A stretch of 64,000 nucleotides of DNA from assembly GCF_034092415.1 (NCBI RefSeq), contig NZ_CP139304.1:1844001-1908000 (forward strand). Reading direction: 5' to 3'. A program made the translations under genes and the position numbers. The DNA is from Prochlorococcus sp. MIT 1341 (lineage in GTDB: Bacteria; Cyanobacteriota; Cyanobacteriia; PCC-6307; Cyanobiaceae). Of the stretch, positions 15,727-20,253 are shown piece by piece. Position 1 is the first letter of the stretch; each line of letters begins with the position of its first letter. The notes below the pieces were generated by a model. That model saw only the letters and a list, made by a program, of their open reading frames with translations. It did not search any database and was not told the origin of the DNA.

Positions 15727-16730
15727 AAAGATATTTATTTTCTCTTCTTAATTTTTTAAAGTCGAGACTTCAACAAGCGACTTTGTTTGTCGACATAAGA
15801 ATAATAATAACATTCACTTGTATTGGGTTTGTGTTATATAGTCTGATCGATAACGCCTCTCAGCTCTCTCAAATTAACCTAGAAGGTAAAACATTTATTT
15901 TGCTTTCATTTGGAGCTATATTTAGCTGGATTAGTTTAATTATTAATGCAATTGCATGGAAGATTTTGATAAACTGGCAAGGATATAAAGTTCAAAATAT
16001 ATCTCTAGTAAGTTTATTTTTGAGGAGTAATATTCTCAAATATCTTCCTGGAGGAGTTTGGCACTTCATTGAAAGGATAAGGGTTCTTCGTATGAATTTA
16101 GGAGGGTCTTCGGCTATTTCTGCTGTTTTGTTTGAACCTATTTTGATGGTGGTTGCAGCTTTACTATGGGTCCCCTTTGGAGGATGGCAAGCAGGCCTCG
16201 CTGTTTGTTGTTGTTTGCCTCCAGTTGTCCTCCTTCCAAGATGCCGTAAACCAGTTTTAAAACTTTTTAGGAAATTAAAGCTGAAGCAAATGGAGAAGAT
16301 TGAGAAAGAATTTATAGAATCTACAAATTTTTCCAAGGTGGTTGACGAAGGAACGAAATATCCGTTTGCCCCCCTTGGATGGGAAATGTTGTTTATTTTT
16401 TTTAGATTCGTTGGCTTTTGGTTTTGTTTGAAAGCTTTTTCTATAACTACACAAATTGCATTTGGTCAATGGTTAGCTGCTTTTGTGATTGCCTGGACTG
16501 GTGGCTTGGTTGTCCCAGCTGCTCCTGGAGGGGTTGGAGTTTTTGAAGCGATAATTTTTCTAAGACTTGGCGCGCTTGTTCCTGAAGCTCCTTTTTTGGC
16601 GGCTCTTATTGCTTATCGGGTGGTTTCAACCCTTGCAGATGTCTTGGCTGCATTCATGAATCCAAGTGACTCTTTTTATGTGAAAGCTTTTAAGGAAAAG
16701 CTTCCTTTAGGGAGGAGCCTTAATCATTAG
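15720..16730 (+). CDS. Flippase-like integral membrane protein (UPF0104 / lysylphosphatidylglycerol synthase TM family)
   Basis: 336 residues from ATG 15720, which overlaps the larC stop. About eight hydrophobic helices are visible. Family hallmarks are LRSNILKYLPGGVWHFIERI near residue 105 and WTGGLVVPAAPGGVGVFEAI near residue 265; the PGGVG-x-E motif is typical of UPF0104 proteins, which include the membrane half of MprF. The cytosolic lysyl-transferase domain of MprF is missing. A lipid or glycolipid transport role is family-level inference. Confidence 0.8.
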   Translation: MLKRYLFSLLNFLKSRLQQATLFVDIRIIITFTCIGFVLYSLIDNASQLSQINLEGKTFILLSFGAIFSWISLIINAIAWKILINWQGYKVQNISLVSLFLRSNILKYLPGGVWHFIERIRVLRMNLGGSSAISAVLFEPILMVVAALLWVPFGGWQAGLAVCCCLPPVVLLPRCRKPVLKLFRKLKLKQMEKIEKEFIESTNFSKVVDEGTKYPFAPLGWEMLFIFFRFVGFWFCLKAFSITTQIAFGQWLAAFVIAWTGGLVVPAAPGGVGVFEAIIFLRLGALVPEAPFLAALIAYRVVSTLADVLAAFMNPSDSFYVKAFKEKLPLGRSLNH

Positions 16731-16869
16731 GAGAAGGTTTGCCTTCTATGGCATTTCTAATAGGAGTGTTAGAGCAATGATGATGAAGATCTAAAGAAAT
16801 GCATCTTTGTATCGCTGTGAACTTCCCAAACGAATCAAACAGTGCATGATAGTTATGTAGCAACCGCTA

Positions 16870-16940
16870 CCAAAACGTTCACCTCAATACTTATTGAGGC
16901 GCAGTTCGACCCAAGCCAAGGAACGGGGACTTGGGCCGCT
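16870..16940 (+). promoter_or_regulatory. Glutamine-II type riboswitch (Downstream-peptide motif)
   Basis: The leader of the DUF4278 gene folds as the cyanobacterial Downstream-peptide RNA is described to do. CGTTC (16876-16880) pairs with GAACG (16921-16925), enclosing a hairpin CCTCAAT/ATTGAGG (16882-16888 with 16893-16899). CCCAAG (16910-16915), inside that enclosure, pairs with CTTGGG (16930-16935) outside it, making a pseudoknot. The family binds L-glutamine and precedes very short genes, exactly the arrangement seen. The pairings are read directly; the family assignment is from memory of the consensus. Confidence 0.78.
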
Positions 16941-16955
16941 TTCGGACTCTGAATC

Positions 16956-17123
16956 ATGACAAAACTTCTTTACCGTGGACATGAGTATGTTCAGCACAAG
17001 GATCCTGCGGCTAAGCAGCCTGTTGAGCTGACCTATCGACGCAAGATTTACACAAGCAGGAAAGAGCAGGTCGCACCAAAGCACCCTCTTCTTACCTATC
17101 GCGGTAAAAGCTATACCAAATAG
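16956..17123 (+). CDS. DUF4278-type small protein under riboswitch control
   Basis: A 55-residue basic protein starting at the ATG 21 bases past the riboswitch pseudoknot. It contains three Y-R-x3-Y units: LLYRGHEY (4-11), LTYRRKIY (25-32) and LTYRGKSY (46-53), matching the YRG-x-SY motif of cyanobacterial DUF4278 proteins. It has no signal peptide, membrane segment or cysteine. The frame is closed by TAG and an intrinsic terminator follows 27 bases later, so leader, gene and terminator form a complete short unit. Control by glutamine implies a nitrogen-status role, by analogy with the GifB leader; the target is unknown. Confidence 0.85.
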   Translation: MTKLLYRGHEYVQHKDPAAKQPVELTYRRKIYTSRKEQVAPKHPLLTYRGKSYTK

Positions 17124-17149
17124 CAAAAATCTCTGCTTACTTTTATTAG

Positions 17150-17178
17150 GCTCCGATGGATAATCGGAGCTTTTTTTT
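17150..17178 (+). terminator. Intrinsic terminator of the DUF4278 gene
   Basis: GCTCCGAT (17150-17157) pairs perfectly with ATCGGAGC (17163-17170) across a 5-base loop, followed directly by eight T residues. This is the clearest factor-independent terminator in the window. Confidence 0.93.
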
Positions 17179-17261
17179 GGAGTGAGTTTATTTTTAATTA
17201 GGCTCTTATTGGATCGATTAAACTAAATAAAGTTTTTATTAATGGCTATTTATAAATAACG

Positions 17262-18818
17262 TTAGTTAGAAATTTTTTTCTTGACAATTGTCTCTCCGCT
17301 TTCCAATCCAGGTATTAAAGCTGCTGAGGCAATCAGTCCCAAGAAAAGAATCATTAGAGCTGGAAGAATTGACTCTGCCATTCTTTCATCACTTGCATAT
17401 TGAAATATTCGTACAGATAAAGTATCAAAATCAAATGGCCTGAGAACAAATGTAAGTGGTAGTTCTTTAATTGTGTCTACAAAAACGAGTAAGGCACCAA
17501 CTGCAATTGGCCCTTTAAGTAAGGGTAAGTGAACCCTGCGAAAAACCTCTTGCCATTGACATCCGAGCCCAGTAGCTGCCTCATCTAGGCTAGGAGAAAG
17601 TCTTTCTAAAGCAGCATCAAGACCACCTTTAGCAACAGCAAGAAATCTATTGCTATAGCCCCAGATGAGAAGAATGATAGGAGTTAGTTTTAAGGGAGGA
17701 CTGCTAAATGATTGGAGAGCAAGAGCTAAAACCGCTCCTGGAATTGCATAACCTATTCCAGAAAGAAACGTTAGGCTTCTTATCCAATGAGAAGTGTTCC
17801 ATCTTTTCGCGATTGCAAGTATTAGGGCTGCTAGTAAAGTTGTGCTCGCAGCGATTAGGCCGAGACCTAGACTTCGAGCTGTGAGATAAATTAATTCGAG
17901 ATTTAACCCGGTTTTTAATTGTTCAATGTTTACAAAAGCCCAAAGGAGTGGAACTCCCAGGGTGAAACAGGGAGGTAATAGACCTAAAAGTTGAGCAAGT
18001 ATTGCGCGGGGACCTTTAAGTTCCCATTCAGGAGATTCGCCTCCTGCAACTCCATCTGTCCAGCGTCTACTTCGACTTCTAAGTATTCTTTCATAGGCGA
18101 CAAGAGTAATTACTAGGACTAGTGCTATCAGTGCTAAAGCAATTGCTCCTGTTGGATTTCCTTTTGCTATCCAGTTCTCAACAATTCCAGCTGAAATACT
18201 AGGAATGTTTAGTAGTTGTACTGCTCCAAGTTCATTAACAATTTCCATACTCATTAGTGCAATCCCCGCCCCAATTGCTGGCATAGCTATAGGTAAAGCG
18301 ACTTTTCGAAAGCTATTCCAAGGTCCTATTCCAAGACTTCGACATGCTTCTAGTTGACGACGCCCACTTTTTGAGAAGCTTTCTGTACTAAGCAGAAAAA
18401 CATATGGATAAGTTGTAAGAGTCATAACTAGGATTCCCCAAACCATTCCATAAATTCTGATTGTATAAATGCTCCCTAGGTCAATTAAAGTTGCTGATAA
18501 AAGATATGCAGGGGTAGCAAAGGGGATTAATTGGGCAATTTTTAAAAGTCGTCTCCCAGGAAATCTACAGTTTGCAAGAAGCCACCCATTTGCTGTTCCT
18601 AAAAATCCACCTAGCAGAGCTGAACCTATGAGTAAATATAAAGTCCCTTTGATTTGATTCACCCCATCGATGCCTAAAGTTACTTGATTATTTCTCAACC
18701 CGATTATCCCTTCATTGATAAGGCCTAATAGAGGAGATAAAACTATGATTGCAATAACAATTACGAGGCCATTTAAAAGGACTCTTTGATTATTCTTTCT
18801 ATTTTGGATCAATGCCAT
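17262..18818 (-). CDS. Iron(III)-type ABC transporter permease (FutB/FbpB family)
   Basis: 518 residues with about twelve membrane helices arranged as two fused permease halves. Each half carries a BPD-type EAA loop: ACRSLGIGPWNSFRKVALPI near residue 165, and EAATGLGCQWQEVFRRVHLPL near residue 430. This duplicated layout is typical of ferric-iron and thiamine-type permeases (FbpB, FutB, ThiP). The ATPase and periplasmic binding protein are not adjacent, as is common in picocyanobacteria where fut genes are dispersed. Iron is the likeliest substrate, but that rests on family resemblance. Confidence 0.85.
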   Translation of the reverse strand: MALIQNRKNNQRVLLNGLVIVIAIIVLSPLLGLINEGIIGLRNNQVTLGIDGVNQIKGTLYLLIGSALLGGFLGTANGWLLANCRFPGRRLLKIAQLIPFATPAYLLSATLIDLGSIYTIRIYGMVWGILVMTLTTYPYVFLLSTESFSKSGRRQLEACRSLGIGPWNSFRKVALPIAMPAIGAGIALMSMEIVNELGAVQLLNIPSISAGIVENWIAKGNPTGAIALALIALVLVITLVAYERILRSRSRRWTDGVAGGESPEWELKGPRAILAQLLGLLPPCFTLGVPLLWAFVNIEQLKTGLNLELIYLTARSLGLGLIAASTTLLAALILAIAKRWNTSHWIRSLTFLSGIGYAIPGAVLALALQSFSSPPLKLTPIILLIWGYSNRFLAVAKGGLDAALERLSPSLDEAATGLGCQWQEVFRRVHLPLLKGPIAVGALLVFVDTIKELPLTFVLRPFDFDTLSVRIFQYASDERMAESILPALMILFLGLIASAALIPGLESGETIVKKKISN

Positions 18819-19140: not shown

Positions 19141-20253
19141 TCATATTATACACTTCAAGAGTTGCTTTTGAAGCAACTCATGATTTAGTTGACGACCTAT
19201 TAGGACAAGCTGGTTTCTTTTCTTCCCTTTCCACTCAGAGTCGTCTATACTAAAACGCTTCCCAGCCAGATGAAAAATATGTCTTCTTGTGCTTTCATTA
19301 AACCAAAGAATTCCTTTAGCCCTAAAAATTTCTTTAGGTAGTTGGTTGTCAAGAAAATTTTGAAATTTTCTTAAAGATAGAGGTCGATCGCTTGAGAAAG
19401 ATAGAGAGGAAAATCCTTCTATCTCTTGCATATCTTTGGGTTGACCATGTTCATGTTCATGTTCATGTTCATGTTCATGTTCATGTTCATGTTCATGGTC
19501 ATGGTCATGTTCATGGTCATGTTCATGGTCATGGTCATGTTCATGGTCATGTTTAGCATTGAAAGTATTTGATTTTTTTTGCTCCGAGATATATTTGTCA
19601 GTTTCAAATAGACCTACACTCATTAGTAATGGAAGGGCTACTTGACCTTCTTTACATCTCAAGATCCTAGAACCATTTTTTATTGATTCAATTGATGATT
19701 CGATTTGATTTAAACGTTCATTTTCTGCAAGGTCACATTTGTTCAGAAGAATTATATCACCATAAATTATTTGAGACCTTACTATGCCACTTTCCAGTAG
19801 TTCGCTGTTGAAGTTTTCAGCATCTATTACTGTTATTATTGAATCGAGACGGGTTGTTTCCCTTAGTTCACTTCCTAAGAAGGTCATGGCTATAGGTAAG
19901 GGGTCGGCTAGACCGGTTGTCTCAACAATGATGTAATCAATCGAATCACCTCTTTCAAGGAGCTTCTCAATAGCTCCTACCAGTTCTCCATTTATTGAGC
20001 AACATATGCAGCCATTGCTTAACTCGATCATGTCATCACTAGTGGTGATAATTAGCTCATTATCTATACCGATCTCCCCAAATTCGTTAACAAGAACAGC
20101 AGTTTTTAATTCTTTTTGGTTTTTTAAAATATGGTTTAAAAGTGTTGTTTTACCTGCACCAAGAAACCCTGTGAGTATTGTTATTGGTACAGGCCCTCTT
20201 GAGTCTGAACAGGTTTCACCATCGCTCTCTAAATTGTTGTTTGATAAGTTCAT
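19141..20253 (-). CDS. CobW/COG0523 metallochaperone GTPase with a long His/acid tract
   Basis: 370-residue GTPase of the G3E family, which delivers metals (often zinc or cobalt) to client enzymes. The P-loop GFLGAGKTT lies at 29-37, the metal-binding GCICC motif at 81-85, and the GTPase base-recognition motif as LLNKCDL near 165. Residues ~234-269 form an uninterrupted alternating His-Asp/Glu tract, a metal buffer or sensor between the GTPase and C-terminal domains. phhB follows upstream on the same strand after 50 bases. Zinc-chaperone function is inferred; cobalamin synthesis is less likely despite the name. Confidence 0.9.
   Translation of the reverse strand: MNLSNNNLESDGETCSDSRGPVPITILTGFLGAGKTTLLNHILKNQKELKTAVLVNEFGEIGIDNELIITTSDDMIELSNGCICCSINGELVGAIEKLLERGDSIDYIIVETTGLADPLPIAMTFLGSELRETTRLDSIITVIDAENFNSELLESGIVRSQIIYGDIILLNKCDLAENERLNQIESSIESIKNGSRILRCKEGQVALPLLMSVGLFETDKYISEQKKSNTFNAKHDHEHDHDHEHDHEHDHDHEHEHEHEHEHEHEHEHGQPKDMQEIEGFSSLSFSSDRPLSLRKFQNFLDNQLPKEIFRAKGILWFNESTRRHIFHLAGKRFSIDDSEWKGKKRNQLVLIGRQLNHELLQKQLLKCII
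19446..19552. repeat. Hexanucleotide tandem repeat encoding the His/acid tract
   Basis: About eighteen near-perfect copies of a 6-base unit, CATGTT or CATGGT on the plus strand. Because six is a multiple of three, unit gain or loss changes tract length in frame without breaking the CobW gene. The 5' copies (plus strand) are uniform CATGTT; the rest mix both forms. Confidence 0.95.

Follow-up and report, generated by a model that had tools for sequence, protein, structure and literature searches.

The window, that is, the whole 64-kb stretch of DNA analysed here, belongs to a complete 1.94-Mb genome and carries a small cassette in which a predicted promoter with an NtcA-type palindrome, a glutamine riboswitch aptamer, a gene for a 55-aa DUF4278 protein and an intrinsic terminator follow one another on the forward strand (Table 1). 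The gene on the 5' side shares the cassette's direction and the ABC permease gene on the 3' side points towards it, so the unit looks monocistronic. As a result of a stem search over positions 16700-17300, only one terminator was detected, which lies 3' of the gene as the original prediction had placed it, and none was found between the aptamer and the gene. Elsewhere in the window, a CobW-family GTPase gene (19141-20253, minus strand) encodes a very long His/Asp/Glu repeat (HDHEHDHEH...), probably a metal-binding stretch.

Table 1. Positions of the cassette's features in the window and of related loci in the same genome
Feature	Position	Strand	Basis
Predicted -10 element CATGAT	16845-16850	+	Sequence; position of the hexamer in relatives
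GTAGCAACCGCTAC, NtcA-type palindrome GTAN8TAC, probably transcript +1 to +14; potential 5-bp RNA hairpin	16857-16870	+	Sequence
Glutamine-II riboswitch aptamer	16873-16935	+	RF01704, 74.4 bits
CGTTC, pseudoknot 5' strand	16876-16880	+	RF01704 alignment; naming from PMC6698751
P1 hairpin CCTCAAT/ATTGAGG	16882-16899 (arms 16882-16888/16893-16899)	+	RF01704 alignment
AGTTCGA joining segment, candidate anti-RBS strand (glutamine-free state)	16903-16909	+	7-bp match to 16942-16948, minimum-energy fold
P2 CCCAAG/CTTGGG (16910-16915/16930-16935), enclosing GAACG (16921-16925)	16910-16935	+	RF01704 alignment
TCGGACT, ribosome-binding region (GGA ends 9 nt before ATG)	16942-16948	+	Sequence; folds
Gene for 55-aa DUF4278 protein, three Y-R-x3-Y repeats	16956-17123	+	PF14105, E 1.9e-9; relatives at 38 public-genome loci
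Intrinsic terminator, 10-pair stem (17148-17172) and T tail	17148-17178	+	Between convergent genes; sequence stem search
Further aptamers with near-identical 59-aa peptides MNTLPLIRSHIK...	L002 1501-1751, L003 1501-1751 (G000:C1:1601804, 1607993)
Second DUF4278 gene, 135 aa, C-terminal extension	L004 1252-1659 (around G000:C1:1597998-1598150)	-

The covariance-model search, which had been set beforehand as a test of the predicted motif, assigned the aptamer to Rfam RF01704 (Glutamine-II, formerly Downstream-peptide) far above the curated cutoff, with 74.4 bits against a gathering score of 33 (E 4e-16 for the whole window against 4227 families; E 2.8e-18 within its own genome). The match covers the whole model (1-60) with all helices and no broken pair marked, and the pairings on which the original prediction relied are indeed those of the model. 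The window contains two further Rfam matches, both tRNAs, and none of the 14 control genomes yielded a Glutamine-II match. The type 1 aptamer RF01739 had no real match in the genome (best E 5). The copy in the window shares the aptamer sequence, P1, P2 and pseudoknot of its class without any difference in the aptamer itself, as well as the position just 5' of a small ORF (here 21 nt) and a marine picocyanobacterial host; it is predicted to bind L-glutamine. While every predicted pair is present, CCCAAG/CTTGGG had been called the pseudoknot; the published crystal structure assigns the pseudoknot helix to CGUUC/GAACG and names CCCAAG/CUUGGG P2 (PMC6698751). Because the two helices cross, this exchange of labels is a matter of convention.

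The predicted 55-codon gene was likewise borne out as a DUF4278 gene. Its product matches PF14105 over the entire profile (1-57 of 57; 38.2 bits against a cutoff of 25.3) and carries the Y-R-x3-Y repeats YRGHEY, YRRKIY and YRGKSY. This short, Arg/Lys-rich protein is conserved: an alignment of 20 sequences shows 16 invariant residues. Its named relatives are mostly from Prochlorococcus, and the nearest one (84% identical), in AG-363-P19, keeps the flanking genes for nickel insertion, an LPG-synthase-TM-like protein, an ABC permease and CobW in the same order; these neighbours are absent at all other loci of the relatives set. No phage record with a relative was found. An AlphaFold2 model of the protein was poor (pLDDT 66.6, pTM 0.26) and unsuited to fold comparison.

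We surveyed 151 genomes of the family, in which the aptamer with a DUF4278 gene recurs. The Glutamine-II aptamer is present in 92 of these genomes, with up to nine copies per genome, and DUF4278 in 120. Leaders were compared in a sample of 129 aptamers and their flanking sequence, for the most part the top-scoring copies, of which 123 precede a DUF4278-like (YRG) ORF and the remaining ones other small proteins; 120 of the former were flagged by a script, and L070, L072 and L081, for which the script had picked a wrong start, were added on reading. These counts agree with the literature, in which type 2 glutamine riboswitches are described as occurring mainly with DUF4278 genes (PMC6316151). 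A further output class is seen at L107 and L126, where the aptamer precedes small proteins that contain a hydrophobic, membrane-like stretch (AGFLGAFI...).

On its 5' side, the aptamer adjoins a palindrome that fits the NtcA consensus GTAN8TAC. This consensus was found in 122 of the 129 sampled leaders, ending 3-10 nt before the CGTTC strand of the aptamer, as compared with 0.2% of shuffled sequences. In 80 of these 122 relatives, GTA is preceded at a distance of 6 nt by the end of the best TATAAT-like hexamer; transcription is therefore expected to begin with the G of GTA or close to it. Indeed, Yfr6 has been mapped to start at a G that follows a TATA element, its 33-aa ORF begins at nt 97, and its level is reduced on nitrogen depletion (PMC1242208); the ATG of 13 related 33-aa-ORF loci, counted from the G of GTA, falls at nt 93-101, in agreement with Yfr6. 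A site at +1 implies repression, as is known for NtcA at gifA and gifB (PMC7760959), and both site and position suggest that the palindrome is a putative NtcA operator. The original prediction of a self-contained nitrogen-sensing unit, which had missed the palindrome, thus holds for the riboswitch and its gene and fails on self-containment, given a conserved NtcA-type site in the promoter. Some lineages do not have the consensus. In leaders L154-L156, L158 and L159 (L155 is labelled HNLC1), there is a 13-nt palindrome GTAN7TAC with compensatory stem changes, a spacing that is non-canonical for NtcA. A second perfect TGTAGCN4GCTACA in the genome, considered as an NtcA control, was uninformative, as it sits inside a long palindrome. 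A palindrome about 60 bp long and almost perfect (GCATTATCACTGCTTGTCATTTTGTAGCA...) was also noted at about 1478-1538 of L177 (around G000:C1:1718044), with no ORF of at least 60 aa over it.

The conserved +1 palindrome might instead be read as an RNA 5' hairpin, alone or besides an operator role, although we consider this unlikely. Among leaders that lack GTAN8TAC, 12 unique ones were usable, and eight of these still show a perfect stem with no fewer than five pairs, as compared with about 12% of shuffles. Five of these eight are the GTAN7TAC leaders of one clade, with U-A, A-U or C-G as the fifth pair, so that the independent evidence amounts to about four events; the other three loci carry changed stems (L066 GCAGC/GCTGC, L129 GTCGT/ACGAC and L106 GCATTC/GAATGC). 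However, the GTA and TAC halves are exact in 122 of 129 leaders, a C-A mismatch at the fifth pair breaks the stem in 14 of the 122, and the 59-aa class described below keeps GTAN8TAC and has lost the stem. A palindrome with two jobs, as NtcA operator in DNA and as conserved 5'-terminal hairpin of the riboswitch leader in RNA, is possible but rather unlikely in our view; on this reading, the hairpin alone would survive in the HNLC-type clade and at a small number of further loci. If true, 2-oxoglutarate sensing by NtcA and glutamine sensing by the RNA would be joined in one element of 14 bp.

We then considered how glutamine binding may be coupled to expression. As no terminator separates the aptamer from the gene, control is likely translational, the mechanism proposed as probable for the Glutamine-II class (PMC6698751), and ON switching has been shown for a Prochlorococcus DP aptamer (via the review PMC6316151). 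In its minimum-energy fold, the window leader retains both P1 and P2, and AGUUCGA pairs with UCGGACU over the ribosome-binding region. Occlusion of this region by the aptamer was 0.36 in 127 leaders versus 0.28 in shuffled ones (Wilcoxon p 3e-6, phylogeny ignored), and for the window leader alone, shuffled leaders equalled its occlusion 25% of the time. Duplex folding of own versus swapped pairs gave a weak signal (p 0.023). The corresponding test on 7-mers gave p 0.011 for all leaders and p 0.50, with no covariation, for leaders with a joining segment other than the commonest. We therefore retain the helix solely as a model, restricted to this leader and those closely related to it, in which AGUUCGA would probably pair with UCGGACU in the glutamine-free structure.

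The genome contains two more Glutamine-II aptamers (34.6 and 32.3 bits), which lie 6 kb apart and which the original prediction had also missed. Both precede the 59-aa peptide, which has no Pfam or NCBIfam match and has relatives in 28 of the 151 genomes. The aptamer was found upstream in all seven 59-aa-peptide loci checked, six of them above the gathering score. In this class, a second GAACG after the Shine-Dalgarno GGAG can pair with the CGTTC strand (UACGUUC/GAACGUA in L002) and could provide a clear competing structure for the pseudoknot strand, as judged from the sequence; among seven further loci, GGAACGT is kept in four and absent in three (L180, L185 and L186). The second DUF4278 gene of the genome, which lies within a few kilobases of the first 59-aa aptamer, has no aptamer, and its product has no similarity to IF7.

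The locus is thus very probably a monocistronic type 2 glutamine riboswitch gene, in a Prochlorococcus-type cyanobacterium, that combines NtcA repression with glutamine-ON translation of the 55-aa DUF4278 protein. When nitrogen is short, NtcA would occupy GTAN8TAC at the start site of transcription and thereby block it, as the site and its position suggest. When nitrogen is plentiful, the mRNA would be made and glutamine would stabilise the CGUUC/GAACG pseudoknot, which would free the ribosome-binding region and turn on DUF4278 translation, as the literature shows for a relative and as we infer here. The protein would then be a nitrogen-excess effector that probably binds a partner protein, for which glutamine synthetase (GS) is the leading published, hypothetical candidate. 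It is already published that type 2 glutamine riboswitches and DUF4278 genes are coupled in marine picocyanobacteria, and the locus is an ordinary one for the group. A regulon of tiny proteins gated by both NtcA and glutamine offers a compact candidate answer on the control of nitrogen assimilation in picocyanobacteria, which has been called unclear (PMC6316151). Because this genome has a single DUF4278 output alongside a 59-aa output that is unrelated and present in two copies, the partners of the peptides are directly testable.

The output was originally described as unknown, which is still true at the protein level, as neither similarity to IF7 nor a relative of solved structure was found. 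DUF4278 proteins, including PMM1846 as an IF-like protein, have been proposed as possible GS inhibitors, and DUF4278 covers the N-terminal part of IF17, whose gene gifB has a glutamine riboswitch and NtcA repression (PMC6316151). IF7 proper (NF052599) is missing in all 151 family genomes, the controls giving only a sub-cutoff signal in Synechococcus elongatus, so the role of GS inhibitor could be vacant; the protein's small size, Arg/Lys-rich composition and conservation would also suit a streamlined GS inactivating factor that functionally replaces IF7/IF17. However, the protein has no NCBIfam match and no BLASTP alignment with IF7 (the IF7 query used matches NF052599 at E 2.7e-36), and it ends after DUF4278, whereas IF17, by its description, continues into an inhibitory C-terminal part. 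Moreover, the DUF4278-like part of IF17 is reported to be dispensable for IF17 function (PMC6316151). We therefore regard a GS inactivating factor as possible but doubtful. About an even chance is given to another partner in nitrogen/carbon metabolism, e.g., PII or another enzyme, as for other small cyanobacterial regulators. This partner is hypothetical; on the other hand, genomes with up to nine aptamers exist, and the same aptamer class precedes different peptides, including the 59-aa family, so that the switch would mark a glutamine regulon rather than one enzyme. That the locus is a Yfr6-like regulatory RNA with an incidental ORF is highly improbable: Yfr6 was originally reported as a noncoding RNA that contains a small ORF and has an antisense partner (PMC1242208, PMC2518516), but the invariant residues and the Pfam domain match argue against an incidental ORF here.

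The preferred reading, an NtcA-repressed and glutamine-activated gene for a DUF4278 protein, has close counterparts among known systems. PMM1846 of Prochlorococcus MED4 is, by its published description, a DUF4278 protein with a glutamine riboswitch in the 5' UTR and an NtcA motif in the promoter (PMC6316151), as at the window locus, in a different strain. Yfr6 of Prochlorococcus MED4/SS120 resembles it in that, according to the literature, a short ORF has a Glutamine-II aptamer as its 5' UTR; it differs in its 33-aa ORF with two YRG repeats, as against 55 aa and three repeats, and has an antisense partner, Yfr14. The loci related to Yfr6 in our sample encode 33-aa YRG peptides. Finally, gifB of Synechocystis shares, from the literature, NtcA repression, a glutamine riboswitch and DUF4278 in the N-terminal part of its product, whereas its aptamer is of type 1 and IF17 has 149 aa, in contrast to the type 2 aptamer and DUF4278 alone in the window. 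With its conserved NtcA-type promoter site and its riboswitch, the cassette therefore follows the NtcA-plus-glutamine design known for gifB.
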